Below are positions 30,765-64,000 of a stretch of 64,000 nt of DNA, piece by piece. The DNA comes from Arenibacter sp. 6A1 (GTDB lineage: Bacteria > Bacteroidota > Bacteroidia > Flavobacteriales > Flavobacteriaceae): positions 1 through 64,000 of the forward strand of contig NZ_JAAXCQ010000013.1 of assembly GCF_012272855.1 (NCBI RefSeq), in the 5' to 3' direction. The translations under genes and the position numbers were made by a program. Position 1 is the first letter of the stretch, and every line of letters begins with the position of its first letter. The notes under the pieces were generated by a model. That model ran no database searches and was not told the origin of the DNA. It saw only the letters and a program-made list of their open reading frames with translations.

Positions 30765-30766
30765 GT

Positions 30767-42207: not shown

Positions 42208-43989
42208 ATGAAAATTATAAAATTTGTTTTGTTTTGTTTTGTTTTCGTTTTTTTTGTTAGTTGTCAAAAAGAAAAGAAGTTTGGTATGCCTAATACTTTT
42301 GATGAACCTATAGATCCATCACCAATTAAAGATGAAAATTGGGATGCGGTTCCAAATGGATTGCAAGCTTCAGTAACATCAACCAACATCCGATTTGTAA
42401 AAAGTGTGATTCCTAAATTAGAGCAGAAAACAACTTGGACGGGTGATGCTTGGAAGGGGGAGCGTATTTCTAGTCAATTGGTTTTATGGAGTAATGATTC
42501 CATTAATCTTGTTACAACTGAAATTTCAGATTTTAAATCAGATACAGGACAGACCTTACCCTCTAGTATTGCTAAGGCACGTTTCGTGAAATATGTAATT
42601 ACAGATGAGTTTGCTGGAGGTTGTGGTTACAGAAAACCGGAGGACTTTGCATCTTCTCTGGCTGCCGACGCCTTAGATGATGTGAGTTCGTATGCTGTAA
42701 AAGAAAGAGAAACCAGACCATTATGGATTACCATTGATGTCCCTAGCGATGCTGAATCTGGAACTTATAAAAGTACAGTAACCATTAATATTGAAGGGCA
42801 GAAATCAAAAACCTTTGAATTCACCCTGAATGTTATTGATATGATTCTCCCGCCAGGAGTCGAATGGGATTTTCATTTAGACTTATGGCAAAATCCATAT
42901 GCTGTTGCTCGTTTTCATAATGTTGAACCTTGGTCGAAAGAGCATTGGGACTTGTTGAAGCCTTTGATGAAACGATTGGCAGATGCAGGTCAAAAAGTTA
43001 TCACTGTATCGCTTAACAAACGTCCATGGGGCGGACAAACTTTTGACCAATTTGAAGCTATGGTCGATTGGAGAAAGAAAGCTAATGGGACTTGGGAGTA
43101 CGATTTTTCCATATTTGATAACTGGGTAGATTTTATGATGGATCTTGGAGTTAAAAAACAAATAAGTTGTTATTCCATGGTGCCTTGGGGTAACGAATTT
43201 TATTATTTTGATGAAGCTAAAAATAAGGAAATAAAGATTAAAGCGGCTCCAGGAACAAAAGAATATGAGGAGTTATGGGTTCCTTTTTTAACCGAGTTTA
43301 AAAAACATTTGGTTGATAAAGGCTGGAATAACATTACGAGAATTTCAATGGATGAGCGTGGTCCGGAAGAAATGAAAGCCATGTTGACATTGCTTGATCA
43401 ACACGCACCGGAATTTGGGGTGTCATTTGCTGATAATCATAAAAGTTACAAGTTGTACCCCGATGAACTAAAGGATATGTCGGTCGCTTTTGGTCACCCT
43501 GTTGATCACGAAGACTTATTGAAAAGAAGAGCTAATGACTTTATAAGTACACACTATGTATGTTGTTCAGATGGATTTCCAAATACCTTCACTTTCTCAC
43601 CCCCTGTGGAAGGTGTGTTTATTGGTTGGTACACAATGGCTGCAGATTTTGATGGTTTTTTGCGTTGGGCCTATAACAGTTGGGTAGAAAACCCTTTGCA
43701 GGATTCCCGCTTTAGAGCTTGGCCTGCGGGAGATACTTATATTGTGTATCCAGACAATAGAAGCTCAATTCGATTTGAATCCTTGCATGACGGTATTGAA
43801 GATGCCGAAAAAATCAGAATACTAAGAAAGGTGTTAAAAGACAAGAACATGCTTGATGATCTAGACTATTTGAATATGGTGGTTGCTCAATTTAATATTA
43901 CAACTAGTCCTGAAGATGGAGTAGAAGCTATGATTGAAAATGGTAAAAACGTATTAAATAGTTTAGCTGAAAAATTAGAGAAACACTAA
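42208..43989 (+). CDS. GH123-like lipoprotein (DUF4091), putative N-acetyl-hexosaminidase
   Basis: A 593-residue lipoprotein with lipobox FVSC (Cys about 19). The N-terminal part has the beta-sandwich segment VPSDAESGTYKSTVTINIEG. The catalytic barrel contains ISMDERGPEEM with an Asp-Glu pair at about residues 382-383; this is the Asp-Glu arrangement used by GH123 N-acetyl-beta-galactosaminidases in substrate-assisted catalysis. The end (WVENPLQDSRFRAWPAGDTY, then RFESLHDGIEDAEKIRILRK) is typical of DUF4091/GH123. An ECF-type site lies 190 bases upstream. Its presence suggests amino-sugar residues in the locus-2 substrate. Substrate not proven. Confidence 0.78.
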   Translation: MKIIKFVLFCFVFVFFVSCQKEKKFGMPNTFDEPIDPSPIKDENWDAVPNGLQASVTSTNIRFVKSVIPKLEQKTTWTGDAWKGERISSQLVLWSNDSINLVTTEISDFKSDTGQTLPSSIAKARFVKYVITDEFAGGCGYRKPEDFASSLAADALDDVSSYAVKERETRPLWITIDVPSDAESGTYKSTVTINIEGQKSKTFEFTLNVIDMILPPGVEWDFHLDLWQNPYAVARFHNVEPWSKEHWDLLKPLMKRLADAGQKVITVSLNKRPWGGQTFDQFEAMVDWRKKANGTWEYDFSIFDNWVDFMMDLGVKKQISCYSMVPWGNEFYYFDEAKNKEIKIKAAPGTKEYEELWVPFLTEFKKHLVDKGWNNITRISMDERGPEEMKAMLTLLDQHAPEFGVSFADNHKSYKLYPDELKDMSVAFGHPVDHEDLLKRRANDFISTHYVCCSDGFPNTFTFSPPVEGVFIGWYTMAADFDGFLRWAYNSWVENPLQDSRFRAWPAGDTYIVYPDNRSSIRFESLHDGIEDAEKIRILRKVLKDKNMLDDLDYLNMVVAQFNITTSPEDGVEAMIENGKNVLNSLAEKLEKH

Positions 43990-45381
43990 AACAACACTAA
44001 TAATTAGGGGTATAATTCTAGACATTAGCATAGGGATCTTAATAGTGATACATAAATTAGAAATATAAAATTACTCAAATAAGTATTTATTCTTTTGTAA
44101 ATATTTTTAAGACCAATAAATATTGTAATTAAACGTCCAATTAAGTAAAATAGAACTGGAGTTAATATAATTTTATAGTTATATACTTGTATTGGTACTA
44201 CTTAGATTTTTGTGGATAAGCAATCAATCTTGAAATTCAATAAATATTGTATGTAATAAGGAAAAAAAACTTACTTATTAAAGCATAAATTATTTCGTAG
44301 TGATACTGTTTATAATATATATTATAGAGTATATGGTGGTTGGTAATGAACTATTGTAATTGTTGATTAATTATATTTGGACTGGCTTTACATAAAAATA
44401 TTCAGATAAATGTTTCAAGCAGTTCCCAAAACCATATTTTTAAATCCTGCAGGAGGAAAACACGAATTAATCATTCTTTTATGTAGTTGAAAACCGTAAA
44501 AAAATAACACTAATGAACCAAAAACTAATATGACTGACCATTATTTAATAATTGAAAAATTTGCTCTACAACAGGTGATTGTGCTGGTTTTTTTAACGTT
44601 CCAATAATATTAACAATTCAAAAAATTGTTATACTACTATGAACTGGTATCAGTTACTCCTTCAAAGCTGTTTATATATGTGAATTTATAACTCATTTTA
44701 AAGGGTGGGTCCATCTATTTTATTTTCGATTATTAGACTGTGTACAATGTAGAGTTATATGAAGATTTGGGAAGTATCAAAATTTCTTGTAAAGTAAATA
44801 ACCTGATTCATGAGCTTTTAACTTAGGGAACTATATTGGTCTTTAATAAAGTGATTAAATTTTCAGTTGTCGTGGTGGATGCTATCGGACTTTAATCTTT
44901 TAATTCAAATTTAAAGAGGGGATACTAGCATAAAGAACTAGAAAAAAAATTGAAAGTAGATAAAAATATTTGAGCGTGTATTTAGGAGTTACAGATCTAA
45001 AATAAATAATTGTTGCAATTTATTTTTTGCGTCAAAGATTTAGAGGTTAAAGGAATCATAGTATTAGTTTTCAATGCAATTGATATGGTGGCGCTTTTCT
45101 ATTTTAGTCTTAAATATGAAAATTAGTGATGTAGCAGGAAGTTGAATAATATTATGTTTTATTCTTGTTTTTCGTGGAAGTAAGACAGCATTTTTTATTA
45201 AACTTTAAAATTATTGTAAGAATAATGTCCCATATGTCAATTTTTTCAACCTGTCTTGAATATTTTGCGACTCTATTTAAATATTAGTTATTGTAAAACT
45301 TTCATGATTTTTAATATGAACTTAAATAAGTGATTTTCAAAGTGCTATGGTGTCAAAATCAATATTTAAAGATTAATAAAT
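43990..45381. other. Long gene-free AT-rich stretch upstream of ECF sigma 2
   Basis: About 1.39 kb between the GH123-like gene and the sigma gene, very AT-rich, with stops in all frames. A weak hairpin (AACAATT/AATTGTT at 44612-44630) is the only structure noticed. No ECF-type site, tRNA, coding remnant or terminator with a T run was seen. It may contain an unrecognised small RNA or be degenerate DNA. Confidence 0.4.
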
Positions 45382-45990
45382 ATGGATGTAATAAATTTAA
45401 ATTCGGAGGAGCAAAGGTTTAAATCCTTTAAAAAGGGAGATAAACTCGCATTTGAATACTACTTTTCCTTTTTTTATGGACGGATTACAGGTTTTTGCAT
45501 TCAGTTTTTGGGTGATCAAGACAAAGCTCAAAGTGTTGCACAGGAGGCCTTTATAAAGCTATGGTTAAATAGGGGCAAGGTTGAGAAAGTTAGTGGCATA
45601 AAATCTTTTTTGTATACAGCTGCTAAAACCCAATGCTTGGATATTTTAAGACATCAATCGGTAACTTCTAAATACCGGAATTTGAAACTACACGAGAAAG
45701 AAATTAATTTGAATGTTGAAATATTAAAGGCTATGAATTTTGATGAAGTTTCCTTTCAGGAATTAGAAGCACTAGTTGATAAAACAATTTCAAAATTGCC
45801 GCCACAATGTAGGACTGTATTTCTTCTGAGTCGCTTTGAGTCCAAGAAGAACAGGGAAATAGCAAATGAGTTAAATATATCGATTAAGGCTGTAGAAGGT
45901 AATATAACGCGAGCCCTAAAAATTTTCAGAATAGAACTTTCTAGCTACCTCATATTTATACTTTTTATCATAAGCAGTTTTTTATTGTAA
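45382..45990 (+). CDS. RNA polymerase ECF sigma factor (FecI-like) with hydrophobic C-terminus, locus 2
   Basis: A 202-residue ECF sigma factor. Sigma-2 (LAFEYYFSFFYGRITGFCIQ, KAQSVAQEAFIKLWLN) and sigma-4 (ISKLPPQCRTVFLLSRFESK, NREIANELNISIKAVEGNIT) are both clear. The protein ends in a strongly hydrophobic ~16-residue tail (SYLIFILFIISSFLL), which could bury in the membrane and hold the factor near its FecR partner. FecR is encoded 345 bases downstream on the same strand, unlike the divergent arrangement of locus 1. Confidence 0.93.
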   Translation: MDVINLNSEEQRFKSFKKGDKLAFEYYFSFFYGRITGFCIQFLGDQDKAQSVAQEAFIKLWLNRGKVEKVSGIKSFLYTAAKTQCLDILRHQSVTSKYRNLKLHEKEINLNVEILKAMNFDEVSFQELEALVDKTISKLPPQCRTVFLLSRFESKKNREIANELNISIKAVEGNITRALKIFRIELSSYLIFILFIISSFLL

Positions 45991-46291
45991 CATTTAATTA
46001 AGTACTGGGATTTATCTACATTATCTTAAAGTAATTTGGATACACTTCCTTTATAAATTGTGAAAATGATTTCCATTTACAAATTTTAGGCATTCTAAAA
46101 TGTATTTCAGTCAATTTTAACCAAACACCTACCCACTTCTGTGATTTAGGAGTTTGTTTTATTTCTTATTAATACTGTATAAGAAAAGTAACAATAATTT
46201 GTATTTCTAATTTTATAACAATTTCTCAAGTATTACAGTAAGAATAAACTACGCCTCACCAGAATATTAAATAATTTAATAATATCACATA
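45991..46291. other. Non-coding spacer between ECF sigma 2 and fecR 2
   Basis: About 300 AT-rich bases without an open frame. It leads into the ECF-type site at 46292, so fecR and the following susC genes probably have their own promoter separate from the sigma gene. Confidence 0.5.
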
Positions 46292-46316
46292 GGGTATATT
46301 TAAACTAATACGTACC
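46292..46316 (+). promoter_or_regulatory. ECF-type promoter-like site upstream of fecR 2
   Basis: GGGTA (46292-46296), 14 bases, CGTACC (46311-46316), then TAAA; the fecR ATG is 20 bases downstream. Spacing and both half-elements are identical to the site upstream of the GH123-like gene. It probably represents autoregulation of the sigma/anti-sigma system. Confidence 0.65.
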
Positions 46317-46335
46317 TAAAGTGTAACATATTTAT

Positions 46336-47490
46336 ATGAATCAGTCAGCTATTGTGAAGTATTTATCAGGAGAAGCATCGGAAGATGAAGTTGAAGCATT
46401 ATTTGAATGGATAAATTCTGATCCATTAAATGAGAGAATGTATATAGATCTCATAAAGGTATGGGCAATGACTTCAGAATCTAATGAGAATAAAACACAG
46501 GCATGGCAATCAATCCAAAAGTCTATAGATAAGCGTGAAAAAAGAGTGAATCGTCACCTATTAAAGTACGCTGCGGTATTTATTGGGATTTTGTGCGGTA
46601 CATATTTTTATGTGACTCACAATACCATTGAAAACAGTCCTATACAAAACTCTCAGGACTCAATTACACTAGATATTGGAAATGGACAATTGGAATTGAT
46701 CGATGCTTCTGATGATAAGGTTATAGTAGGTAATAATGGTCAGGTTATTGGTATGCAGAAAGGTGATACTTTAAATTATGCTGTTAAAACAAACATAAAT
46801 CACACAATAACTGATGCAAACTCCAAGGCGGAAGACTTAGTCTATAATGAAATTAAGGTGCCTTATGGTAAAACGTTCCAAGTTTTACTTTCAGACGGTA
46901 CCTATGTTTATTTAAATGCAGGAAGTACTTTTAAGTTTCCGGTAAATTTTATTTTGGGTTTAGAAAGAAAAGTGTTTTTAAGTGGAGAAGGATTTTTTGA
47001 AGTGGCAAAGGATAAGGACCCCTTTATTGTTAATGCCAATAATGCTAACATTAGGGCATTGGGAACTGCATTTAACGTGAGTGCTTACCCTGAAGAAAAA
47101 GATGTTAGTACTGTTTTGGTTGAGGGGTCGGTGGGTATTTACCATAATAAAGAGCAGTTTTCAAAGGAACATTCAACTGTTTTAGTGCCAAATCATATGG
47201 CAATATGGAACAAGGAGAAAAAGGGCGTTATTGTAAAAGCTGTTGATGCGGAAATGTACACCGCTTGGGTGTCAGGAAGATTGGTTTTTCGAAATACCCC
47301 CTTTAAAGTCATACGCAAAAAATTGGAAAGGCATTACAACATTCAAATTATAAATAACAACCGACTACTTGATGAGAAAATCTATAATGCTGTCTTTGAT
47401 ATTGAGACGATAAGAGAGGTTATGCAAACTTTGGATGAAAGCTTCAGAATTAAATATACAATCGAGAACAATAAATTAATTATTGAATAA
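46336..47490 (+). CDS. FecR family anti-sigma factor, locus 2
   Basis: A 384-residue protein with the same plan as FecR 1. The N-terminal cytoplasmic part is VKYLSGEASEDEVEALFEWI. One transmembrane helix (LLKYAAVFIGILCGTYFYV) follows, then the FecR domain (IKVPYGKTFQVLLSDGTYVY, LNAGSTFKFP, RKVFLSGEGFFEVAKD) and DUF4974 (RLVFRNTPFKVIRKKLERHY). It should hold the locus-2 sigma factor inactive until the SusC receptor encoded downstream signals. susC begins 152 bases after its stop. Confidence 0.93.
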   Translation: MNQSAIVKYLSGEASEDEVEALFEWINSDPLNERMYIDLIKVWAMTSESNENKTQAWQSIQKSIDKREKRVNRHLLKYAAVFIGILCGTYFYVTHNTIENSPIQNSQDSITLDIGNGQLELIDASDDKVIVGNNGQVIGMQKGDTLNYAVKTNINHTITDANSKAEDLVYNEIKVPYGKTFQVLLSDGTYVYLNAGSTFKFPVNFILGLERKVFLSGEGFFEVAKDKDPFIVNANNANIRALGTAFNVSAYPEEKDVSTVLVEGSVGIYHNKEQFSKEHSTVLVPNHMAIWNKEKKGVIVKAVDAEMYTAWVSGRLVFRNTPFKVIRKKLERHYNIQIINNNRLLDEKIYNAVFDIETIREVMQTLDESFRIKYTIENNKLIIE

Positions 47491-47560
47491 CCTTAAAACC
47501 AACGAAATGAAGAACTGAAAAGAAATGAGTATCGACCATGAAACTGTTTAATTTTTAAGA

Positions 47561-47642: not shown

Positions 47643-50600
47643 ATGAAAAAACTATTAAAACAGGAGTGCCATCCTATTGGTATTCCTAAATTCAACTTAA
47701 AGGTGAAACTAACTACATTTTTATTTTTGCTTGTATTGATGCAGAGTCAAGCAAATTCATATTCGCAAAATACCAAAATATCCCTGAACCTCAATGATGT
47801 TACTATTCAAAGTGTTCTGGATGAAATTGAATCTAAAACAGAATTTAAATTTTTTGTAGATACCGATATTATTGATCTATCGAAAAAAGTTTCTGTAACT
47901 GAAAAGGAAAAGCGAATTTCTAGCGTTTTGGAAAAATTATTTAAAGGTACCAATATTGTTTTTAAGGTTGTTGGGAAACAAATTGTTTTAAAGCCTGATT
48001 CTTCAAAAAGAAATACTCCTCAAATACCAAATAATTCCAAAACCGAAATAGAATTGCCACAGAAAACTATTTCTGGTACGGTAACGGATGAAGAAAATAT
48101 TCCATTATCTGGGGCTTCGATTGTCATTAAGGGTAGTACGACCGGTGTAGCTGCCGATTTTGATGGGAATTTTAATATTCAGGCATCAATGGGTGATATC
48201 CTTGTGGTATCTTATATTGGTTATAACTCAAAGGAGATAACAGTAACGGATCAAACTGAATTGACCGTGGTTCTTACAGCTTCTAACGAATTAGAAGAAG
48301 TCGTCGTGGTAGGTTATGGATCTAAAAAGAAAATTAACCTTACAGGTGCTGTTGAAACAGCCACTGCAAAAGAAATTGTTGAAAATAAAGGGATTTCCAA
48401 CCTCGGTGAGGCGCTACAAGGCCGTCTTTCAGGTTTGAATGTTAATTTTGGTGATGGTGCTATAGATTCTAAACCTTCTTTTAATATTCGTGGTATTACT
48501 ACAATTGGTGGAGGTGGTGCACCCTTGATTTTGGTAGATAATATACCCGTAGATTCAGATATATTAGTTCAAATGAATCCAGAAGATATTGCGAGTATCA
48601 GTGTTTTAAAAGATGCATCTGCATCTGCTATATATGGTGGTAGAGCGTCATTTGGGGTGATATTAGTAACTACCAAAACAGGGAAAAATGAGAAAATCAA
48701 GGTAACTTTAAATACTACTACAAGAATATCTACTCAATCTCATTTTCCTGATTTTGTTGATACACCAACACATATGAAGTTAAGAACCATAGCAGAAACT
48801 GCTGCTGGAGATTCTCAATTTTTCCAAAATGATTGGATTGCTGCTGCTGAAGCCTATCATAATGACCCATTTAATAATCCTGTAGACGAAGTTGTAAACC
48901 CGGTATACGATGCTAATGGTAACCTTATTTCTGGAGATTATCGTTTTTACGGAACTACAAATTTTATGGAAGAAACCTTTAAAAAATCCATGATACAGTC
49001 AAAATATGATGTTAGTGTTTCTGGAGGTACAGAAAAAATGTCTTTATATGGGTCTTTTGGTTTTGTTAAAGATGAAGGGGCATTTAGATATGGTAATGAT
49101 AATCTTAGGATTTTTAATGTTAGGTTAAATAGTACAACTAAAGTTAACGATTGGTTAGAGGTAGATACCAGAATGGCTTATGTTAAACGTAAATATGATT
49201 CACCTTTAGTTGGTTTTAACTGGGTTTACAACAAGACATATTTTCAAAGAACTTACTTTCCGTTGGTAAATAGAGGATTAAATCTTCCTACAAATCATGC
49301 CATAGCAACATTGAATGCCGGAGAAAGAGATTTATATGAAGATGACGATATAACTATTAGTTTAAAAACCAGTGTGGAATTGGCTAAAAATTTGAATGTA
49401 GTAACAACACTTACATCTCATTCTTTAGCGGGGCTTAATCAAGACTTTGAAAAAATCACACCTATTGCGGATAATGGTGCTTATCATTTTCCTATAGATG
49501 TCATATGGTATCCAAACGGTACTAGATCATCTGCATATAGAAGAACAAGATCAGAGAGGCGTTTTTTAGTTGATGTCTATGGAAACTATAGTAAAACATT
49601 CAGTGATAAGCATAATGTATTAGCTACTATTGGTTATAATCAAGAACAATATCTTAGTGAATTTTATAACATTAGAAAATATAATTTAATTACGGAAAGT
49701 GTACCAGCTCCTGATTTAACTTTGGTAAATGAGCTTTCAGATATTGATTCAAATCATGGTGCTTCAAATTGGGCTATTCGTGGCGGTTTTTATAGAGTTA
49801 ATTATGATTACGATGGCAAATATTTATTAGAGTTTAGTGGTCGTTACGATGGTACATCTCGATTTAAAAAAGGAAATAGGTTTGGGTTCTTTCCTTCAGG
49901 ATCTTTAGGATGGAGAGTTTCTAAAGAAAAATTTATGGATGGTACCGACGAATGGTTAAGTGATCTTAAACTTAAAGTGTCTTATGGTAGTATTGGTAAT
50001 CAAGATGGTGGTGGAACTTACCCATACATCTCCACTTTAAGTATTGGAGAATCAAGTAACATTTTAGGGACTATAAGACCTACCACTGTTGGTTTACCTA
50101 GTGTTGTAGATCCTTTTATTACATGGGAGGAGGTTAGCTCTTCAAATTATGGAGTAGATGCAGCATTTTTAAAAAACAAACTCGAAGCTGGATTTGATTA
50201 TTATATACGAACTACTGAAGGTATGCGAGTAGCAGGAGATCCATTACCAGGTATTTTTGGGTCCGGGGCTCCAGACAGAAATGCAGCCAATTTAGAAACT
50301 AAAGGCTGGGAAGCAAGATTAAGTTGGAGAGACAAAATAAAAGAATTTAACTATGGTGTAAACCTTAATGTATGGGATTCTAGAGCACATATCACTAAGT
50401 TTGATAACAACCCAACCAATAGTCTTGGTGGAGCTTGGTATGTAGGTGAGGAGTTTGGTGAAATTTGGGGCTATGAAACCGAAGGGTTCTTCAATACGGC
50501 AGCTGAAGCTGCTGAAGCTGAAGCTGGTGGTGCGCATGATCAATCAGATTTTGGATCTAACTGGAAAGCTGGAGATATTAAGTATAGAGATTTAGATGGC

Positions 50601-51149
50601 GATGGTAAAGTTGATGATGGAGAAGGTCTTGTAGGAGATTCTGGTGATAGAAAAATTATTGGAAATAGATCGGCGCGTTATAATTATGGAATTACGCTTA
50701 ATGGATCATATAAAGGTTTCGGATTTGAAGCTTTTTTTCAAGGAGTAGGTAAAAGAGATTATAACCCTACAGGGGATGGATCTATTTTCTATCCATTTGT
50801 AAGTCGTTGGGATAATATACAAAAGCATCAGGTTGGGCGTTCTTGGACTCAAGATAATCCTAATGCGTACTTCCCACAACTAGAAACAGGTACGCGTAAC
50901 TATGCGACACAAACAAAGTATTTACAGGATGCATCCTATATAAGGTTAAAAAGCTTAAGTATATCCTATGCTTTACCATCAGATGTACTGGATAAATTAC
51001 CGATTAGCAATCTAGTGCTTTCGCTAAATGGTCGTAATTTATGGGAAGAACATAGTTTACCAGAACCATATGATCCTGAAAATTTGGGCAATCCATTTGG
51101 GGCGCCACTTAGAAGATCATATTCCTTAGGTGTAAAAGTTAATTTCTAA
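47643..51149 (+). CDS. SusC/RagA family TonB-dependent outer-membrane transporter with STN domain, locus 2
   Basis: A 1168-residue receptor. A signal peptide (LTTFLFLLVLMQSQANS) leads into an STN domain (ISLNLNDVTIQSVLDEIESK ...), a carboxypeptidase-regulatory-like domain (GTVTDEENIPLSGASIVIKG), a plug (EEVVVVGYGSKKKINLTGAV; ISVLKDASASAIYGGRASFG) and a beta-barrel ending YSLGVKVNF. There is an Ala/Glu-rich repeat (AAEAAEAEAGG) in one late loop. It pairs with the SusD encoded 9 bases downstream and signals through FecR 2. The ligand is unknown, but neighbouring genes point to a phosphodiester-containing substrate. Confidence 0.95.
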   Translation: MKKLLKQECHPIGIPKFNLKVKLTTFLFLLVLMQSQANSYSQNTKISLNLNDVTIQSVLDEIESKTEFKFFVDTDIIDLSKKVSVTEKEKRISSVLEKLFKGTNIVFKVVGKQIVLKPDSSKRNTPQIPNNSKTEIELPQKTISGTVTDEENIPLSGASIVIKGSTTGVAADFDGNFNIQASMGDILVVSYIGYNSKEITVTDQTELTVVLTASNELEEVVVVGYGSKKKINLTGAVETATAKEIVENKGISNLGEALQGRLSGLNVNFGDGAIDSKPSFNIRGITTIGGGGAPLILVDNIPVDSDILVQMNPEDIASISVLKDASASAIYGGRASFGVILVTTKTGKNEKIKVTLNTTTRISTQSHFPDFVDTPTHMKLRTIAETAAGDSQFFQNDWIAAAEAYHNDPFNNPVDEVVNPVYDANGNLISGDYRFYGTTNFMEETFKKSMIQSKYDVSVSGGTEKMSLYGSFGFVKDEGAFRYGNDNLRIFNVRLNSTTKVNDWLEVDTRMAYVKRKYDSPLVGFNWVYNKTYFQRTYFPLVNRGLNLPTNHAIATLNAGERDLYEDDDITISLKTSVELAKNLNVVTTLTSHSLAGLNQDFEKITPIADNGAYHFPIDVIWYPNGTRSSAYRRTRSERRFLVDVYGNYSKTFSDKHNVLATIGYNQEQYLSEFYNIRKYNLITESVPAPDLTLVNELSDIDSNHGASNWAIRGGFYRVNYDYDGKYLLEFSGRYDGTSRFKKGNRFGFFPSGSLGWRVSKEKFMDGTDEWLSDLKLKVSYGSIGNQDGGGTYPYISTLSIGESSNILGTIRPTTVGLPSVVDPFITWEEVSSSNYGVDAAFLKNKLEAGFDYYIRTTEGMRVAGDPLPGIFGSGAPDRNAANLETKGWEARLSWRDKIKEFNYGVNLNVWDSRAHITKFDNNPTNSLGGAWYVGEEFGEIWGYETEGFFNTAAEAAEAEAGGAHDQSDFGSNWKAGDIKYRDLDGDGKVDDGEGLVGDSGDRKIIGNRSARYNYGITLNGSYKGFGFEAFFQGVGKRDYNPTGDGSIFYPFVSRWDNIQKHQVGRSWTQDNPNAYFPQLETGTRNYATQTKYLQDASYIRLKSLSISYALPSDVLDKLPISNLVLSLNGRNLWEEHSLPEPYDPENLGNPFGAPLRRSYSLGVKVNF

Positions 51150-55615: not shown

Positions 55616-55623
55616 TGTTATCT

Positions 55624-56862
55624 TTAGGCCACAGGGGTCAACCTTACGTTAAACCCTAGTTTTCTCAAGTGACCCACTGTTTTTTGAACTTCTTTTTGTT
55701 TGCGCTTTTGGTCAGCTTTCGCGATCTGCAACAATGGCTCTTTATAGGCCTCTTATTCTTAAGAATAAAATACGTTGCTACGATGATCTTATGGCTGACC
55801 GCCATTAAGGCTTTTTTACTGCCTTTTCGAACCAGTAGCTTTTGGTAAAACCGCTTTAGGTAGCCCTGTTTCCGACGGGTAGCTCCCCAGTCCGCTTCCA
55901 CTAATGCGGATTGGAGGTGCTTGTTCCCGTGGATGACCCTAGTGCTCGTTTTTTTTACCTGCGCTCTCATTACTTCCAGGGCTTACCCCGGACCAACTTG
56001 CCAAATGGTGCTGGTTGGGAAAACGTTCCATATCCACACCGATCTCACTGACTATGGTCAAGGCCGTGTCTTTTCCCACCCCGTCTATGGTCTGCAATAA
56101 ATCCAGCTCCAACTGGTACTGGGCAGCGATCAAATCTATTTGCCTGTCCAGTTTAGTGATAAGTTTCTCATTCTCTGCTATGGTCTCGCGGATCATCTTT
56201 AGCATAAACCGGTGATGGGGCGTGATACGTCCGGTCAATGCCTCGGCCATTTCCTCTCGAGGGGTCTTTACACGGCCGTGCACGTGGGTCAACAAGTGGG
56301 CAACATCCTCCTTGCCTTCAATGATATCATCGATAATCTTAGAGGCACTTACTCCTTTTACATCACTTACCACACTGCTCAATTTGATATTGCAATCCTC
56401 TAGGACTTTTATAATACGATTGGTCTCAGAGGCCACAAACTGGACCTTTTTCTTTTTATAGCGCATCAAATCCCGTAATTCCCGGATCTCTTTGGGAGGT
56501 ATGAAGCTACCTTTCAATAACCCGCTCAACAAGAGTTTGCTAAGCCAAGCACTGTCTTTCTTATCCGTCTTGTGCCCAGGGACGTTCTTGACATGCCGGG
56601 CATTGACCAGGATAATCTCAAAATATTCCTCCGGAATATTAAAAACCGGTTTCCAATAGATCCCGGTACTTTCCATGGCAACATGGGATACTCCCTCTTC
56701 CCTGCACCAATCACGTAACTCTGTCAAAGAACTTGTATAGGCAGTAAACTGCCGGGTCTCAAAATCTTTGCTGCTCCTTCTAATGGTAGCAACAATAACA
56801 TCCTTGTGAACATCTATTCCGCATCCCACGGAAATAAGTTGCTCAAAGTCAATTGCTTTCAT
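55624..56862 (-). pseudogene. IS110-family transposase with two frameshifts
   Basis: Start at the ATG 56862 (MKAIDFEQLISVGCGIDVHK). The N-terminal DEDD/RuvC-like domain has GIDVHKD, HVAMESTGIYWKPV, and VPGHKTDKKDSAWLSKLLLS. The C-terminal Tnp20 part has LLQTIDGVGKDTALTIVSEI and ASWSGVSPGSNESAG with the catalytic Ser region. At about 55950 a run of eight A residues shifts the frame (seven would be in frame). Translation then continues as STRVIHGNKHLQSALVEADW. A second shift at about 55745 (one base lost) hides the tail KEPLLQIAKADQKRKQ up to the original stop at 55624. Probably inactive unless the A run allows slippage. Confidence 0.8.
55940..55958 (-). repeat. 19-base inverted repeat, copy inside the transposase at the frameshift
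   Basis: Minus-strand copy of the sequence at 55597-55615, spanning the eight-A run that breaks the transposase frame. The coincidence suggests that the shift and the outside copy arose in one event, such as template switching. Confidence 0.7.
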
Positions 56863-57172
56863 ATTCGACAAGTGTTTAATTCCTAACCTAAATTTAAGAA
56901 AAAAACTCATCGGTGTTTGCGTGTGTTAAATCATGGGTATTTCATAGAATTTATCTGATTTTTCCAATTTTGTTTTGAATGGGAGGGGTGAAGTTAAAAT
57001 GAAGTGAGTAAGCCTAGTTGTTTAAGCCATATATAACATTAGTAATATTTATACCTTGTACTTTTCTTGACATTACGAAAATTAATACTGGTAATGTTAT
57101 TATACCCAAAGGGTAATAACACTAATAATAAAAACCTAATTGATTTTTTTAAAATATCCTAAAATTCATATA
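56863..57172. other. Non-coding stretch upstream of the transposase; possible bridge-RNA end of the IS
   Basis: About 310 bases. The part next to the transposase start (to about 57000) may be the non-coding end of the IS110-type element, where a bridge RNA could be encoded; no structure was firmly drawn by hand. The rest is AT-rich and leads into an ECF-type site at 57173. Confidence 0.35.
56866..56877 (+). repeat. 12-base direct repeat CGACAAGTGTTT, right copy
   Basis: Right partner of the repeat at 55536-55547, starting just 4 bases upstream of the transposase start codon (transposase on the minus strand). Confidence 0.4.
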
Positions 57173-57496: not shown

Positions 57497-59974
57497 ATGA
57501 AGATTAAATTGTTGATTGTAAGTATCCTATTTTTAGGTATAAACTTTTTAAGTTACGGCCAATTAAAAGGTAAAGTTTTTTTTGACAACAACGATAATGG
57601 CAAAAAGGAAGTCTCTGAGAAAGGAGTGCAAAATGCAGTGATTTCTGATGGCTATCACGTAGTACGGACCGACAAAAATGGAAATTATCAACTACCGGGA
57701 TGGGAAAAACAACGATTTATAACGATTTATCCAAGTGGCGATTTTAAATCGGAGAAGAGGTTTATTCCCATTACAGGTAAATCAAAATCATATGATTTTC
57801 TAGTTGAGCCTAAGATAAAGAAAGAAGAGGTGAAATTCGTCCAGATCTCCGATACCGAAACCTATGAATATGGAGATTGGGTAGATAATCTAAAGAAATA
57901 CGTAAAGGTCCATAAACCAGATTTTATTGTGCATACCGGGGATATCTGTTATAGGGCGGGTATGGAATGGCATGCAGATAACTTAACAGAAAAAGATTTA
58001 GGTGTTCCGGTTTATTATTGCCTTGGTAATCATGACTTAGTAAAAGGTGATTATGGGGAGCAGTTTTTTGAGGAAAAATTTGGACCTGCTTGGTACGCCT
58101 TTGAGGAGGGCAACACTTTATTTGTCATTACCCCTATGATGGGTGGTGACTTTCCCCCTGGCTTTAATCATGAGGATATTGGCGGTTGGCTTCAAAATTT
58201 AATGAAGGCTTACGATAAAAATCAGCCTAAAATGTTTTTTAACCATGATCTGTTGACGGACGGTGATAGTTTTGTTTTTAAGAAGAACAAGAGGGAATCC
58301 ATAGTTCTGGACGATTACAATTTAAAAGCGTGGTTATATGGGCATTGGCATATTAATATGGTGAAAACCCACGAAAAATCTGGGGTAGTATCCTATAGTA
58401 CCGCTACTCTGGCCAAGGGGGGAATAGACCACTCGCCGTCAAGTTTTAGAGTAATTGATGTGGATAAAAATGGCAATCCCAAATCCGAGTTGATTTGGAG
58501 TCATCTGGAAAGGGAAATCGAAATTGTAAGTCCACAAAATAATCAGCTAAGATTAAATGAAGATGGGAATATTGAGATATCCGTTAATGTGTACGATAGC
58601 GGATCTGCTATAGATAGTGTCCGATATAGTGTATGGGGCAAGGACGAATTTAACTGGGATAACCTACTTTACAAATCAAAATTTAAGTTGATGACCAAAA
58701 CTTCCGATTGGAATTGGAGGGCAACTTATTCCCCAAACGATGGAAGGGACTTTGAGTTGGTCGTAGATGCCTATTTGCAAAGTGGTGAAGTACTACATAG
58801 AAAGCAAAATTTTAGTATAGATGACAAAAAAGTTAGCGGTACATCTAATGGTGAATGGTTTAATATGGCAGGGAATAAGGAGCATCACCCTGTGGTAGAT
58901 ATAAAGCAGCATGCTCCCTATACCATGGAATGGACGGCTAATGTAGGTAGCAATATCTTTATGAGTTCACCGGTAATTATGGGTAATTACGTATTAACAG
59001 CAGGATTTGATGATAGTAATGCGGAGAACAGCTTTATTGTTTGTTGGGATGCTACCTCTGGCAAGGAACTATGGCGGTATAAGACCAAAAACGGCATCAA
59101 GAATCAGATGGTCATCGCTCAAGAAAAAGTGATAGCTACCGATATGATTGGCCATACCTATGCCATAGATATCGCTTCTGGAGAATTGGCTTGGGAGAAA
59201 GATTTAAAATATAACAGAGCTCCTGGGTTTATTACTGGTTTGGTTACTGACGGGAAAATTGTATACACTGGATTTTCCGAATCACTTTCCGCTTTGGACG
59301 TAGATACTGGAAAAGTTTTATGGCGGAATACTGCTTGGAGTGGAGGGGAGGGTACTACACCCACAATGACCATTGCAGATGATGTGCTTATTGCATCACG
59401 TCATTGGGGTGCTATATATGCCCACAATAGGTTTACGGGAGAATTATTATGGTCCAGAAGTGATGAAGGTCTTCGTTTTAGGGATGGTGTTTTGAGTTAT
59501 AAGGATAAATCTCTTTGGGTTGCCGAACGCGACAAGTTTCATCAACTAGATCTAAAAACAGGGAAAACGGTCCATAGTTTTATAACTGGGATGCAGCATA
59601 CGGGAACTTCGGCGCCTATATTATTGCAAGACAATGCTATCCTCTCCGGGTCTCATCCAGGTATTACCTCGTTCGACTTAAAGACGGGAACCAAAAATTG
59701 GGAGTTTCAAGTAGATCCTGCCTTATTTTATACTCCTTCCTATTTTTCAGATCAGCAACAGAGTGTAGAAACCACGCCTATACTGGTAGGAGAGAACCTG
59801 ATTTTTGGCGCAATGGACGGTAAAATATATGTGGTACGGGCTGATACTGGCCAACTAGTATGGAAAACCTCTTTAGGAGCCCCGGTGATTACCTCGGCGG
59901 CAATTGTCGCAGATGGATTTTTTATATGTGACTTTGCCGGAAATATTTACTTTTTTAAAGCAGACCAAATATGA
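57497..59974 (+). CDS. Secreted metallophosphoesterase fused to a PQQ-like beta-propeller
   Basis: An 825-residue exported protein (LLIVSILFLGINFLSYGQ signal). Residues 20-100 are a beta-sandwich N-domain (GKVFFDNNDNGKKEVSEKGV). A calcineurin-type phosphoesterase follows with ISDTET, HTGDIC, LGNHDL, FNHD and YGHWH metal motifs; the usual first-motif DxH is DTE here. The C-terminal ~350 residues form a PQQ-like propeller (CWDATSGKELWRYKTKNG, YAIDIASGELAWEKDLKYNR, ALDVDTGKVLWRNTAWSGGE, ADTGQLVWKTSLG). The fusion suggests a phosphoesterase with a large binding platform. It leads an operon whose next start overlaps its stop by 4 bases. Confidence 0.85.
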   Translation: MKIKLLIVSILFLGINFLSYGQLKGKVFFDNNDNGKKEVSEKGVQNAVISDGYHVVRTDKNGNYQLPGWEKQRFITIYPSGDFKSEKRFIPITGKSKSYDFLVEPKIKKEEVKFVQISDTETYEYGDWVDNLKKYVKVHKPDFIVHTGDICYRAGMEWHADNLTEKDLGVPVYYCLGNHDLVKGDYGEQFFEEKFGPAWYAFEEGNTLFVITPMMGGDFPPGFNHEDIGGWLQNLMKAYDKNQPKMFFNHDLLTDGDSFVFKKNKRESIVLDDYNLKAWLYGHWHINMVKTHEKSGVVSYSTATLAKGGIDHSPSSFRVIDVDKNGNPKSELIWSHLEREIEIVSPQNNQLRLNEDGNIEISVNVYDSGSAIDSVRYSVWGKDEFNWDNLLYKSKFKLMTKTSDWNWRATYSPNDGRDFELVVDAYLQSGEVLHRKQNFSIDDKKVSGTSNGEWFNMAGNKEHHPVVDIKQHAPYTMEWTANVGSNIFMSSPVIMGNYVLTAGFDDSNAENSFIVCWDATSGKELWRYKTKNGIKNQMVIAQEKVIATDMIGHTYAIDIASGELAWEKDLKYNRAPGFITGLVTDGKIVYTGFSESLSALDVDTGKVLWRNTAWSGGEGTTPTMTIADDVLIASRHWGAIYAHNRFTGELLWSRSDEGLRFRDGVLSYKDKSLWVAERDKFHQLDLKTGKTVHSFITGMQHTGTSAPILLQDNAILSGSHPGITSFDLKTGTKNWEFQVDPALFYTPSYFSDQQQSVETTPILVGENLIFGAMDGKIYVVRADTGQLVWKTSLGAPVITSAAIVADGFFICDFAGNIYFFKADQI

Positions 59975-60915
59975 AAAGAATTTTTAAAAATTTACTAGGC
60001 TTGTTTTTCCTATTACAGGGAATCTCAAATTTTGCTCAAACCAATACCCAACTTAAAAAGGGGCAGAATTCAAAGGAAAAACCCACTACGGTTTTTTTTA
60101 TTGGTGTAGATGGTTTGAGTGTTGACGGACTAACAAAAGCCAACACGCCTACTATGGATATGTTTATAAAAATGGGAGCTAGTTCCCTAAAAGCACGAGG
60201 TGTTATGCCAACTAGTAGTGGTCCAAATTGGGGTTCCATGCTTTTAGGGGCAGGCCCAGAACAGCATGGAATCACTAGTAACGGGTGGCGTGTTAACGAT
60301 TATAGTATTGAAGCTACTATTAAAGATGGGGATGGATTTTTCCCTTCGGTTTTCGATATTATTGAAAAAGAGGATCCAAAAGCTAAACTAGGGGTATTTC
60401 ATGAATGGGGAACCATTAAAGATTTATTCAATAATAAATCATTGCACCATATTGAAAAAACCAGTGATATGGATGAATCCTTGGATAAAGCCTTTGCGTA
60501 TTTTAAAGAGGAACGTCCCAAATTTGTGTTTGTCCATTTAGATGCTGTTGACGGTGCCGGTCATACATTCGGTCACGGTTCAAAGGAGTATTATTATGAG
60601 ATTGAACTTATTGATAAAGCTATAGGAGTCTTTTTTGAAAAACTCCAGGCCTTTAACAAAGAAGAAGGTACTGCTGTAAATATATTGGTAACGTCAGACC
60701 ACGGTGGTGTTGGCACCAGCCACGGTGGTAGTACTATGGAAGAAATAATCATTCCATGGATGTTAATTGGCCCAAATGTGAAAAGAGGGCATACCATTGA
60801 GCAACCGATTAATACCTATGATACGCCTGCAACGATTTTACGGCTGTTGGATGCAGATAAACACATTCCAATACAATGGACAGGAAAACCTGTCCTAGAA
60901 GCTTTTAAAAACTAA
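59971..60915 (+). CDS. Secreted type I phosphodiesterase / alkaline phosphatase superfamily protein
   Basis: A 314-residue exported protein (NLLGLFFLLQGISNFAQ signal). Family landmarks are FFIGVDGLSVDGL (metal Asp), MPTSSGPNWGSMLLGAGPEQ (nucleophile region), HLDAVDGAGHTFGH (second metal site), VTSDHGGVGTSHGG (metal site) and PWMLIGPNVKRG. It resembles nucleotide pyrophosphatase/phosphodiesterase (NPP) enzymes and is the intact relative of the truncated gene at 54799. Its ATG overlaps the preceding stop (ATGA). Likely hydrolyses phosphodiesters in the periplasm or at the surface. Confidence 0.85.
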   Translation: MKRIFKNLLGLFFLLQGISNFAQTNTQLKKGQNSKEKPTTVFFIGVDGLSVDGLTKANTPTMDMFIKMGASSLKARGVMPTSSGPNWGSMLLGAGPEQHGITSNGWRVNDYSIEATIKDGDGFFPSVFDIIEKEDPKAKLGVFHEWGTIKDLFNNKSLHHIEKTSDMDESLDKAFAYFKEERPKFVFVHLDAVDGAGHTFGHGSKEYYYEIELIDKAIGVFFEKLQAFNKEEGTAVNILVTSDHGGVGTSHGGSTMEEIIIPWMLIGPNVKRGHTIEQPINTYDTPATILRLLDADKHIPIQWTGKPVLEAFKN

Positions 60916-60920
60916 AACTC

Positions 60921-62504
60921 ATGCATTTAAGAAACAAGATTATAGTAATGGTTACATTGCTATTTTCGATTATAATTTTTGCTCAAGAACCTGTTGTTCA
61001 AATTGATTTTGATGTTCATGACAATCAATATCAAGGAATTAGTATTCCTGAAACCCCAGAGCATCTATTTGCTGCACAGCAACATTCATTTTCTGAAGGA
61101 TTGGAAGGTAGAGCTATAGATTTTTCTAAGGACGGTACTATAAGAATGCCCTTAAAACTGAAACCAGAGGAAGAATTGGAATACCATGCCAAAACATCTT
61201 TAACGGTTGAATTATGGGTAAAGGCAAAACCAGACGCAGGGCAAGGGACCCCTATCGCAGGAAATAAGAAGGATAAAAACACTGAAAATAAGGGATGGTT
61301 AATTTATGCCGAAGAAGATGGCAGTTGGTCGCTTTCGGTTAGTGATGGTAAGCATCAACATATTTACAAGCCCACAGTAAAGCGTCAAAAAATCAATGAT
61401 GGTAAATGGCATCAAATTGCCTTTACTATTGACAGGGTGAAGGAAGAAATATGGATGTATTTTGACGGTGTTAACGTCGCGATCTATAACGCAAGTGGAC
61501 TAAAAGATTTAAAAAGTGATTTAGAGACTACATTTGTTGGAACATCGGGACGATGGGAATATTTTGGGCAATGGGAAGCCTTTAACGGGTATATGGATAA
61601 CATATCTGTTTGGGAAGCGGTGCTACCTACAGCAAAAATATCTGAAAACTATCAAAAGTATTTTCAGCAAAATAAGCCCATTTATCCAATAAATGAACTA
61701 AAATTATTTACGTGGAATATTTGGCAAGGGGGAAAACGATTTGGGAAAGAGGTAGGTTTAGATCGGGTAATAAATATCATTAAAGATGCCAACCCGGATG
61801 TAGTGACACTTATTGAGACTTATGGTTCTGGTGAAGAAATTGCAGACGCTCTAGGATATCATTTTTATCTAGTAAGTTCCAACCTTTCGATTATGAGTCG
61901 TTTTCCTATTAAGAAGACCATTAAAGCATTTAAATCGTTCAATTTTGGTGGTGTCGTATTACAAGTAGATCAGGACAAAGAAATTGTGGTCTTAGACACC
62001 TGGTTACATTATTTGCCAGATTACCATAGCAATATTATAAAAGGAGAGATAACTTCGGAAGAACTGGTAAAAGAAGAGGCCGACACCCGATTAAATGAAA
62101 TAAATCAGATATTAAAGGAAATAAAACCGATTTTGGACAATGCAGATAAAACACCAATTATTATGGCTGGTGATTTTAACACCAACTCACATTTAGATTG
62201 GACAGAAGCAACCAAAGACGCCCATTTAGGTTATGTGGTGGAATGGCCCGTAACTAAGGTTATGCATAACCATGGATTCACCGATAGTTATAGAGAGTTA
62301 AACCCAAATCCCTTAATTGATCCTGGGTATTCTGCATGGCCTTACAGTAGGCGTTTTGGGCAGCGCTATGTGGAAAGCAGAATAGATTATATTTTCTATA
62401 AAGGAAGAAACATTAGAGCCTTAGAATCTAAAGTAGTGAACTATCACCCTATTATGTTTCCATCTGACCACGCCGCCTTTTTAACTATTTTTCAATTGAA
62501 ATAA
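60921..62504 (+). CDS. Secreted LamG plus endonuclease/exonuclease/phosphatase (EEP) fusion protein
   Basis: A 527-residue exported protein (signal IVMVTLLFSIIIFAQE). Residues ~30-240 form a LamG/concanavalin-like domain (TSLTVELWVKAKPDAGQGTP, INDGKWHQIAFTIDRVKEEI, YFDGVNVAIYNASG). Residues ~255-525 form an EEP catalytic domain with TWNIWQGG, VVTLIETYG, IIMAGDFNTNSHLDWTEA, and FPSDHAAF; all catalytic motifs are intact. Such secreted EEP enzymes include nucleases, sphingomyelinase-like and inositol-phosphate phosphatases. The LamG part suggests binding to a polymeric or glycosylated substrate. It starts 5 bases after the previous gene. Confidence 0.85.
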   Translation: MHLRNKIIVMVTLLFSIIIFAQEPVVQIDFDVHDNQYQGISIPETPEHLFAAQQHSFSEGLEGRAIDFSKDGTIRMPLKLKPEEELEYHAKTSLTVELWVKAKPDAGQGTPIAGNKKDKNTENKGWLIYAEEDGSWSLSVSDGKHQHIYKPTVKRQKINDGKWHQIAFTIDRVKEEIWMYFDGVNVAIYNASGLKDLKSDLETTFVGTSGRWEYFGQWEAFNGYMDNISVWEAVLPTAKISENYQKYFQQNKPIYPINELKLFTWNIWQGGKRFGKEVGLDRVINIIKDANPDVVTLIETYGSGEEIADALGYHFYLVSSNLSIMSRFPIKKTIKAFKSFNFGGVVLQVDQDKEIVVLDTWLHYLPDYHSNIIKGEITSEELVKEEADTRLNEINQILKEIKPILDNADKTPIIMAGDFNTNSHLDWTEATKDAHLGYVVEWPVTKVMHNHGFTDSYRELNPNPLIDPGYSAWPYSRRFGQRYVESRIDYIFYKGRNIRALESKVVNYHPIMFPSDHAAFLTIFQLK

Positions 62505-63548
62505 ATGAGAAGAAACTTTAAAAATACCGTTCTAATTGTGACTGTATTACTGTTAATACTGAGTTTAGGTTGTAAGAACAAGTCTACTGCCTTAGACACT
62601 TCCAAGTTTTCTTCATTAAAAGTAATGACCTGGAATATTTGGGGGAGATATAATTTGGAACCACGCTATACCATGGAAGGTAAAACCGCCCGAGAGCGGG
62701 TTCTTGACATTATTAAAGATAGTGATGCGGATATTATTACCATGACGGAAACTTACGGTTCTGCACTAGCAATTTCGGAGGCTTTGAATTTTCACTATTA
62801 TACGCCATCGGCAGATGCAAACCTCACCATTTTTAGCAGATATCCTTTAGAGGATTTTGGAAATGTAAACGGTTTATCACCTTTTTCTTTTATTGCTGCG
62901 ACTGCTATTTTACCAAGTGATCAAAAAATTAGGGTTTATAACATATGGCTAACCAGTGGAGGAAGACATATTGTAGCGATTAAAGATAAAACACTCTCCG
63001 ATACTGAATTTAATGATGGGGACGAGAATCGTTATGAACATATTCAGCAGTTAATTCAACATGAGGACTTTAAAAAGGATTTAGTGAATAAAGATCAGGT
63101 TCCATTAATTGTTGCTGGAGATTTCAACTGTGTTTCTCATTTGGATTTCACGGAGGAAACAAAAGCTAATGGGTTGAATTTTAATAGGCTGGTTGCTAAT
63201 AAAACCTCCATGGCTATGGCCAATGCAAGTTTTACCGATACGTATAGGTCAACTAACCCTAAAATTACTCAAGAAACTTTGGGATATACTTGGACTACTG
63301 TAGGGTTGGAATTTACGTATGATTCTGACTTGGGCTTTGTACCCATTAAAACGGATACACATCCTGAACCCGAATACAGAAATCCTTTTTCTAGAATAGA
63401 TTTTATATATAGCACCGGCGAAAATATAATCCCCCTTAATTCTAAAACCATTGTCCATCATAGTTCTAATTTAAACAGGAGTTTTCCAGAATTCCCATCC
63501 GATCACGGTGCGGTATTAACGACTTTTCAAATAAATCAAAATAAATGA
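62505..63548 (+). CDS. Endonuclease/exonuclease/phosphatase family lipoprotein
   Basis: A 347-residue lipoprotein (ILSLGC lipobox, Cys about 23) directly abutting the previous gene (TAA then ATG). EEP motifs are complete: KVMTWNIWGRY, DIITMTETYGSALAI, LIVAGDFNCVSHLDF, FPSDHGAVLTTF. The sequence GDFN(T/C)(N/V)SHLD is shared with the preceding EEP protein, so the two are close relatives and probably arose by duplication, with the LamG domain present in only one. Confidence 0.87.
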   Translation: MRRNFKNTVLIVTVLLLILSLGCKNKSTALDTSKFSSLKVMTWNIWGRYNLEPRYTMEGKTARERVLDIIKDSDADIITMTETYGSALAISEALNFHYYTPSADANLTIFSRYPLEDFGNVNGLSPFSFIAATAILPSDQKIRVYNIWLTSGGRHIVAIKDKTLSDTEFNDGDENRYEHIQQLIQHEDFKKDLVNKDQVPLIVAGDFNCVSHLDFTEETKANGLNFNRLVANKTSMAMANASFTDTYRSTNPKITQETLGYTWTTVGLEFTYDSDLGFVPIKTDTHPEPEYRNPFSRIDFIYSTGENIIPLNSKTIVHHSSNLNRSFPEFPSDHGAVLTTFQINQNK

Positions 63549-64000
63549 ATTTAAGATATCTTATTTTAATCTTTTTGTTTGGTATTACGAGTGTTGTTTC
63601 TTCGCAAGAAAACTTACGCGTATTAACCTTTAATATTTGGGACCCTGCTGACATTCCATTTTGGGATAAACACGCTAATGGTTACCCGGTTGGTAAATTG
63701 GTAGATTACGTCACGGAAGATAACGCTGATGTTTTATTGTTCCAGGAAGTAACTTTGGAAAAACCACCCCATCATCAATCCTACGCCAGTATTAAAAATC
63801 AACTTATTAAAAAGGGATATATTTATTCTGCCTTTTACAAACCTAACGGAACTACGGGTTATGTTCCAAATTCTACAAACAGTGGTTATCCATTAGCTAT
63901 GTTTAGCAAATTTCCAATTGAAGAAACCTTTACAACGCAACAAACAAGTGAAAAAAGGATGGGCAAGGGGCTATTAGGTGTTAAAATAAGAGTTAAAGAT
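63545..64000 (+). CDS. Third EEP-fold secreted protein, 5' part only (runs off the window)
   Basis: An open frame from the ATG at 63545, overlapping the previous stop by 4 bases (ATGA), to the window edge; about 152 residues visible. Signal peptide (ILIFLFGITSVVSSQE), then RVLTFNIWDPADIPFWDKH and VLLFQEVTLEKPPHHQSY, the first two EEP motifs, followed by PLAMFSKFPIEETF. It is more distant from the two preceding EEP proteins and looks more like neutral sphingomyelinase/DNase I-type proteins in this region. The catalytic GDxN and SDH motifs lie beyond the window. Confidence 0.8.
   Translation, partial: MNLRYLILIFLFGITSVVSSQENLRVLTFNIWDPADIPFWDKHANGYPVGKLVDYVTEDNADVLLFQEVTLEKPPHHQSYASIKNQLIKKGYIYSAFYKPNGTTGYVPNSTNSGYPLAMFSKFPIEETFTTQQTSEKRMGKGLLGVKIRVKD

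Follow-up and report, generated by a model that had tools for sequence, protein, structure and literature searches.

We analysed a window of 64,000 nucleotides that forms the start of contig C4 (154,777 bases) in the 4.67 Mb genome of Arenibacter sp. 6A1. From position 42208 onwards the window carries a locus in which a SusC/SusD (SusCD) pair is co-located with phosphoesterases and glycosidases. The reading that we favour, with our confidence about evenly balanced, is that this would be a nutrient locus for glycoconjugates (glycans or glycolipids) bearing phosphodiester- or phosphonate-linked head groups, for example phosphoethanolamine, phosphocholine or aminoethylphosphonate (AEP). As support we count the enzyme tally, the conservation of the enzymes in Arenibacter certesii, the linkages to AEP genes in relatives, the relatives of the double-LamG lipoprotein in AEP operons, a separate SusCD operon on contig C58 of the same genome, and the GH20, GH29 and EEP genes that neighbour related loci.

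A SusCD locus rich in phosphoesterase folds

An initial annotation, made from the letters of the window, had described a FecI/FecR-controlled SusC/SusD pair with a double-LamG lipoprotein, followed by a metallophosphoesterase-propeller fusion, two alkaline-phosphatase-superfamily phosphodiesterases (one broken) and three EEP proteins. Pfam and NCBIfam profiles confirmed all of these, including the six phosphoesterase folds (Table 1). The same-strand gene run passes the window end and reaches contig position 76,128. Because no gap between 57497 and 76128 exceeds 133 bp and genes overlap in two places, by 4 bp each, this part of the run fits a single operon. By profile matches, the full locus comprises nine intact phosphoesterases and one broken one, three glycosidases and one sulfatase. 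Two GH116 genes and the sulfatase lie past the window end, and the statements that there is one glycoside hydrolase-like gene and no sulfatase fail for the whole locus. The Pfam match to GH123 agrees with the amino-sugar-type enzyme proposed earlier.

The locus shares features with three kinds of system. As in polysaccharide utilization loci (PULs), susC and susD are adjacent and linked to genes for carbohydrate-active enzymes (GH123 and two GH116). As in loci under an extracytoplasmic function (ECF) sigma factor and its anti-sigma factor, FecI and FecR are encoded upstream of an STN-bearing SusC. As in the phosphate utilization systems (PUS), SusCD is linked to phosphomono- and diesterases, here nine intact folds with predicted activities; the enzymes beside this SusCD pair are of two kinds, phosphoesterases and glycosidases. 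All four EEP proteins combine a profile match with the N, E, D-x-N and D-H motifs, which we take to mark the EEP superfamily. The N-termini, judged by eye rather than with a signal predictor, resemble secretion or lipoprotein signals.

The clustering of phosphoesterases at this SusCD pair exceeds chance. The 6A1 genome contains 37 SusD and 16 EEP matches. Measured from match starts, an EEP match was found within 15 kb of six of the 37 SusD matches, and more than one was found solely at the SusD described here, which has four of the genome's 16. A metallophosphoesterase was found within 15 kb of at least five of the 37, a lower bound since the genome-wide search omitted the gene at 75130.

Conserved enzymes and a mosaic SusC

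The counterpart in A. certesii (G007) encodes, in this order, GH123, a second GH123-type enzyme, FecI, FecR, SusC, SusD, two alkaline-phosphatase-superfamily proteins, the metallophosphoesterase-propeller, the NPP-like protein, LamG-EEP, EEP2, EEP3, EEP4, a GH116 of 122 aa only, a GH116, two metallophosphoesterases, an RbsD-like protein, a presumably Nudix-like protein and the third metallophosphoesterase. The common enzymes are 86–98% identical between the two strains and FecI and FecR 86 and 85%, as against 47% for SusC and 36% for SusD. The sulfatase and the double-LamG lipoprotein are without counterpart in the A. certesii stretch. Across 60 genomes searched, the metallophosphoesterase-propeller protein occurs at 80–93% identity in three, 6A1 counted, with 93% in A. 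certesii and 80–82% in three other Arenibacter loci.

DNA homology between the two strains starts at 6A1 position 41989, upstream of which the 6A1 genes differ (including an amidase at 40865 and TraG at 37671), ends at 48352 within susC and restarts at 57533 within the propeller gene. The 6A1 SusC is a mosaic: residues 1–235 are 94–97% identical to A. certesii and 26–48% to Puteibacter, while residues 236–1168 are 26–50% identical to A. certesii and 41–60% to Puteibacter. Likewise, residues 1–200 of the A. certesii SusC are 95–99% identical to the SusC of the 6A1 locus and 29–53% to a paralogous SusC on contig C6 of 6A1, and residues 250–1150 are 27–52% identical to the former and 71–90% to the latter. 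Identity between the SusDs of A. certesii and C6 is 78%. The joint falls between the CarboxypepD-like domain (residues 143–222) and the plug (residues 230–339), and therefore the STN domain (residues 69–118) remains with its FecR. Between 6A1 and A. certesii the sensing half of SusC and the enzymes are kept and the pore and the SusD lid differ, by an exchange that may have taken place in either strain. The initial annotation had named, as a finding that would refute it, homologous loci that keep SusCD without the phosphoesterase genes. Within the genus the conservation of the gene set follows the reverse pattern, with enzymes staying and SusCD changing in A. certesii.

The paralogous 6A1 locus (C6:6815–21204; L024, L025) encodes FecI, FecR, SusC, SusD, a metallophosphoesterase, a metallophosphoesterase-propeller (82%), a LamG-EEP (37%) and the second GH123-type enzyme. 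In A. certesii, the locus that corresponds to the main one has SusCD of this C6 type.

Relatives of the SusD and LamG-EEP proteins

The SusD query matched 17 of the 18 genomes of the genus at E ≤ 1e-60 (no match beyond 6A1 itself exceeds 45% identity) and two of 397 genomes of the family at E ≤ 1e-115 (6A1 included; at most three candidates scored per genome). It gave no match in a wider contig collection, a result that is unreliable since L043 and L064 there hold SusDs of 60–62% identity. An alignment of seven LamG-EEP proteins used as query returned 68 loci from that collection, which biases the loci toward LamG-EEP. Genes of relatives were labelled by their best blastp matches (E ≤ 1e-12 or 1e-10) to 6A1, Kriegella, A. 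certesii and C58 proteins.

The closest SusDs are those of Puteibacter caeruleilacunae (L043, 62%) and a Cytophagales metagenome-assembled genome (L064, 61%). Both loci carry SusC, SusD, LamG-EEP, another EEP and a metallophosphoesterase, and L064 also GH116; LamG-EEP, as the query gene, is present by construction, the other genes are not. Three SusD-query loci examined (G001, G014, G189), with SusDs at 43–46% identity by one aligner and 38–41% by another, show no labelled phosphoesterase within 20 kb, and SusDs at 38–46% therefore appear untied to phosphoesterases. These comparisons suggest that the tie holds for close SusDs and fades with distance. The refuting case named by the initial annotation is therefore not seen among the closest SusDs, which come from the loci found with the LamG-EEP query.

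For neighbour counts we used 57 loci with a full-length LamG-EEP, whose flank lengths differ. Dropped before counting were the duplicates L040, G146, G233 and G011b, then G011a, which lacks LamG-EEP, seven loci whose sole EEP is short (L090, L092–L096, L098) and seven without a LamG-EEP label (L101–L107); the dropped L093 also holds an FAD oxidase that matches the Kriegella one at 78%. Neighbours in the 57 loci are metallophosphoesterase (29), SusC or SusD (16), alkaline-phosphatase-superfamily protein (16), another EEP (13), sulfatase (13), GH123 (11), GH116 (6) and GH95 (3). Extra same-strand neighbour clusters, with one representative annotated per cluster, are EEP (9 loci), GH20 (7) and GH29 (5).

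Linkage to aminophosphonate genes

AEP-type genes occur in 11 of the 57 LamG-EEP loci (10 at first labelling, 11 once the C58 proteins had joined the label set). These span two phyla: six Arenibacter, Kriegella, two Pedobacter, Splendidivirga and one planctomycete, whose FAD oxidase/PhnX-like pair is 48 and 52% identical to the 6A1 C58 proteins. On the tree, the 10 AEP rows required five changes against a shuffled mean of 9.3, and none of 500 shuffles was as low, a contrast that near-copies inflate. The AEP genes of one locus (L089) are not all on one strand, and its PhnW-like protein reaches just 40% identity.

In Kriegella aquimaris (G146/L047) the order is SusC, SusD, a double-LamG lipoprotein, an opposite-strand open reading frame, an alkaline-phosphatase-superfamily protein, PbfA, PhnA, PhnY, PhnW, an MFS transporter, an FAD oxidase, a metallophosphoesterase, LamG-EEP and EEP. 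PbfA, PhnA, PhnY and PhnW score above NCBIfam cut-offs, the transporter and the FAD oxidase above none of those listed. This locus also holds the closest full-length relative of the 6A1 double-LamG lipoprotein (40% to G146), and relatives at 41% are found in the AEP operons of L122, L123, L124 and G014. Some 1 kb separates the end of the AEP operon of A. certesii (SusC, SusD, alkaline-phosphatase-superfamily protein, PhnA, PhnY, PhnW, MFS, FAD oxidase, helix-turn-helix-cupin protein) from the GH123 gene that follows it in the orthologous locus.

Among the 13 AEP operons of the genus, six contain LamG-EEP (L116 via L053) and that of A. certesii lies next to a locus that does; 11 hold a metallophosphoesterase (L116 again counted via L053). 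The genus operons come in two forms, with either a three-gene upstream run (L110, L112, L116, L117, L119–L121) or an AEP-type SusCD (L108, L111, L118, L122–L124). The run upstream of the seven operons presumably resembles a TRAP transporter.

As a separate observation, pbfA, phnA, phnY and phnW lie together in this Bacteroidota genome, at L031:8283–13496 of Kriegella aquimaris, in contrast to PMC12366243, according to which pbfA-phnY-phnA as a combination is confined to Proteobacteria.

A separate SusCD operon of 6A1 (G000:C58, about 206876–217926; L113, L114), with a like operon in G011:C54 (L115), encodes a DUF5690 membrane protein, a TIGR03364 FAD oxidase (423 bits against a cut-off of 285), a PhnX-like hydrolase (TIGR03351, 239 against 219, and below the cut-off of the true phosphonatase model TIGR01422), SusC, SusD, a metallophosphoesterase and an alkaline-phosphatase-superfamily protein. 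To judge from these profiles, it resembles a SusCD operon for aminophosphonates. Both N-methyl-AEP and AEP are oxidised by PbfD1, a protein with the TIGR03364 annotation (PMC10590968).

Substrate and proposed working

The initial interpretation was that the SusCD locus serves to use a substrate with phosphoester groups. This part is supported, because the enzymes are 86–98% identical in A. certesii and AEP genes recur beside LamG-EEP homologues; the proposed set of phosphoesterases with one glycosidase has to be given up. In the working that we propose, the substrate would be bound at the surface by SusD and the double-LamG lipoprotein and imported through SusC. Loaded SusC would signal through its STN domain to FecR, FecI would be freed and the locus switched on. 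The EEP, calcineurin-type and NPP-like phosphoesterases, if exported, would remove charged groups outside the inner membrane, the sulfatase would remove sulfate, and GH123 and the two GH116 would trim amino-sugar and glucose-type residues. The families GH123, GH116, GH20, GH29 and GH95 suggest a substrate that contains amino-sugar, glucose-type and fucose residues.

Invertebrate and protist glycans carry phosphoethanolamine, phosphocholine, AEP, N-methyl-AEP and sulfate, and AEP is found on gastropod glycolipids and jellyfish O-glycans (PMC6994554). Such a mix of head groups and sulfate would suit the enzyme set better than a phosphate-bridged backbone. In a more specific and tentative version, the locus may be an import-and-strip system for phosphono-glycoconjugates, i.e. 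AEP- or N-methyl-AEP-bearing glycans and glycolipids of marine invertebrates and protists. The putatively exported EEP, calcineurin-type and NPP-like enzymes would then be phosphonate-ester hydrolases feeding known AEP pathways, and the binding and pore cassette would be swapped at the CarboxypepD-like/plug joint, so that one sensor and enzyme set could serve new ligands.

Several observations weigh against a locus for phospho- or phosphono-decorated glycoconjugates. The 6A1 locus is without any AEP-catabolism gene. PhnW, PhnA and PbfA have no match in the 6A1 genome and are present in 13, 13 and 12 of the 18 genus genomes, respectively; PhnJ is found in none of the 18, 6A1 included. The LamG-EEP of 6A1 falls in a clade separate from the AEP-linked ones, together with those of A. 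certesii, A. nanhaiticus (L041), Carboxylicivirga (L042) and Puteibacter (L043), and no AEP label occurs in the stretches used for this clade. Six of the 13 genus AEP operons have no LamG-EEP in the stretch fetched, and the available flanks of 46 of the 57 LamG-EEP loci hold no AEP gene. Finally, nucleic-acid-acting EEP enzymes are the top fold matches of the structure models of LamG-EEP (pLDDT 88) and EEP4 (pLDDT 83). A human neutral sphingomyelinase ranks 33rd among the 50 fold matches listed for LamG-EEP, and no sphingomyelinase is among the 50 listed for EEP4.

In an alternative reading, the locus would scavenge phospholipid or sphingolipid head groups, with the EEP proteins acting like sphingomyelinases on sphingophospho- and sphingophosphonolipids and GH116 acting like a glucosylceramidase on glycosphingolipids. 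The EEP, NPP and GH116 families include lipid-acting members, and the sphingomyelinase among the fold matches counts for this explanation. So do the proposal that PUSI acts on nucleic acids and on the head groups of lipids (Lidbury et al., PMC8115612) and the N-methyl-AEP in gastropod sphingophosphonolipids (PMC10590968). Water-soluble oligomers would nevertheless suit SusCD import better, the neighbouring GH20, GH29, GH95 and GH123 indicate longer glycans, and neither a ceramidase nor a lipase is among the annotated proteins of the 6A1 run. We consider lipid scavenging unlikely.

We find it rather improbable that the locus is a plain phosphate-starvation system, one that releases phosphate from a wide range of organic phosphates and has glycosidases beside it by accident. 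Low phosphate does induce the PusCD clusters of Flavobacterium, in which SusCD stands beside mono- and diesterases (PMC8115612). However, FecI/FecR would suggest sensing of a ligand rather than of phosphate, the glycosidases sit inside the run and are kept in A. certesii, and GH123 and GH116 recur in the LamG-EEP loci, as counted above.

A locus for nucleic-acid or nucleotide scavenging, which we rank below the glycoconjugate reading and regard as improbable, would accord with the best EEP fold and sequence matches, which are apurinic/apyrimidinic endonucleases, LINE-1 endonuclease and TDP2, and with the NPP-like protein, whose closest solved structures are nucleotide pyrophosphatase/phosphodiesterases. 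When three EEP proteins were searched against PDB sequences, two had weak matches to nucleases and the third had none, and the EEP proteins score far under the ExoIII model cut-offs. Glycosidases and a sulfatase in the same run, the lack of a nucleoside-use assignment among its annotated proteins and the pathway linked in relatives, which is that of aminophosphonate, also argue against nucleic acids.

A phosphate-bridged or teichoic-acid-like polymer, suggested by the initial annotation from the many phosphodiesterase folds and the amino-sugar glycosidase, gained no specific support and is very improbable, as no result for a locus protein indicates glycerol- or ribitol-phosphate use and the pathway linked in relatives is again that of aminophosphonate.

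Relation to known systems

The 6A1 locus is best read as a variant of the PUS/PUL kind. ECF sigma/anti-sigma-controlled PULs of Bacteroidota share with it FecI, FecR, an STN-bearing SusC, SusD, a surface lipoprotein and glycosidases predicted to be exported; unlike in these, phosphoesterases outnumber glycosidases nine to three. By description, the kind that comes nearest is the Flavobacterium PUS (PusCD, PUSI, PUSII; Lidbury et al. 2020, PMC8115612), which likewise joins SusCD to phosphodiesterases and phosphomonoesterases and whose PusCD clusters, according to that paper, contain phosphonate-degrading enzymes too. Unlike the PUS, it has FecI/FecR, LamG-EEP, four EEP proteins, GH123, GH116 and a sulfatase. 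The hydrolytic AEP pathways PhnW-PhnY-PhnA, PbfA and PbfD-PhnX (PMC8154272, PMC10590968, PMC12366243) are linked in relatives to LamG-EEP homologues and the orthologous locus, whereas none of their genes is in the 6A1 locus.

Among the papers listed by our literature searches we found no SusCD locus assigned to phospho- or phosphono-decorated glycans, and the PUS paper was the sole close precedent for SusCD with AEP or phosphoesterase genes plus GH123/GH116. A term search of the available text found no TonB in PMC10590968 and neither SusC nor TonB in PMC12366243.

Features of the locus and its surroundings

The SusC domains span residues 69–118 (STN), 143–222 (CarboxypepD) and 230–339 (Plug). 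The phosphodiesterase remnant matches positions 1–48 of the 342 of its profile at E 1e-4 and 22.5 bits, slightly below the cut-off of 23. The LamG domains of 52904–54631 and 60921–62504 cross-match models of the clostridial neurotoxin receptor-binding domain and of the non-toxic non-haemagglutinin (NTNH); we read this as probably reflecting a shared jelly-roll lectin fold and not a toxin. Elsewhere in the window, conjugation-type genes precede the locus (34634–40073, with TraG at 37671–40073), and another FecI/FecR/SusCD cluster lies at 18986–33709.

Table 1. Genes of the phosphoesterase-rich SusCD locus of Arenibacter sp. 6A1, in contig order
Feature	Coordinates	Strand	Evidence and remarks
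GH123-type glycosidase, lipoprotein-like N-terminus	42208–43989	+	Pfam GH123_cat 367.6 bits; 1392 bp before fecI; 94–95% identity in A. certesii
FecI-type ECF sigma factor	45382–45990	+	Pfam; 86% in A. certesii
FecR anti-sigma factor	46336–47490	+	Pfam FecR, FecR_C; 85% in A. certesii
SusC with STN domain	47643–51149	+	NCBIfam 842 bits, cut-off 368
SusD	51159–52883	+	Pfam; 9-bp gap to susC
Double-LamG surface lipoprotein	52904–54631	+	Pfam Laminin_G_3, two stretches
Remnant of alkaline-phosphatase-superfamily (type I) phosphodiesterase, 148 aa	54799–55245	+	Pfam Phosphodiest
IS110-family transposase	55939–56910	-	Pfam DEDD_Tnp_IS110, Transposase_20; adjoins phosphodiesterase remnant
Calcineurin-type metallophosphoesterase fused to PQQ-type beta-propeller	57497–59974	+	Pfam; opens enzyme run
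Intact NPP-like type I phosphodiesterase	59971–60915	+	Pfam 94 bits
LamG-EEP phosphoesterase	60921–62504	+	Pfam
EEP2, lipoprotein-like N-terminus	62505–63548	+	Pfam; 88% in A. certesii
EEP3	contig 63545–64441 (whole gene)	+	Profile match; cut by window end
EEP4	contig 64519–65415	+	Profile match; past window
Two GH116	contig 65450–68065, 68075–70795	+	Profile match; past window
Sulfatase	contig ~70806–72344	+	Profile match; past window
Two metallophosphoesterases	contig 72478–73494, 73496–74455	+	Profile match; past window
Small RbsD/FucU-like protein	contig 74457–75047	+	Past window
Third metallophosphoesterase	contig 75130–76128	+	Profile match; past window; closes run

Implications

The mosaic SusC represents a natural experiment, in which one signalling half is joined to different pores and lids while the FecI/FecR partner is unchanged. 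In our judgement, the way in which bacteria release aminophosphonates from lipids and glycans is a missing link between the organisms that make AEP and the enzymes known to catabolise it. The LamG-EEP family, AEP-linked in two phyla, provides named candidates for direct assay.

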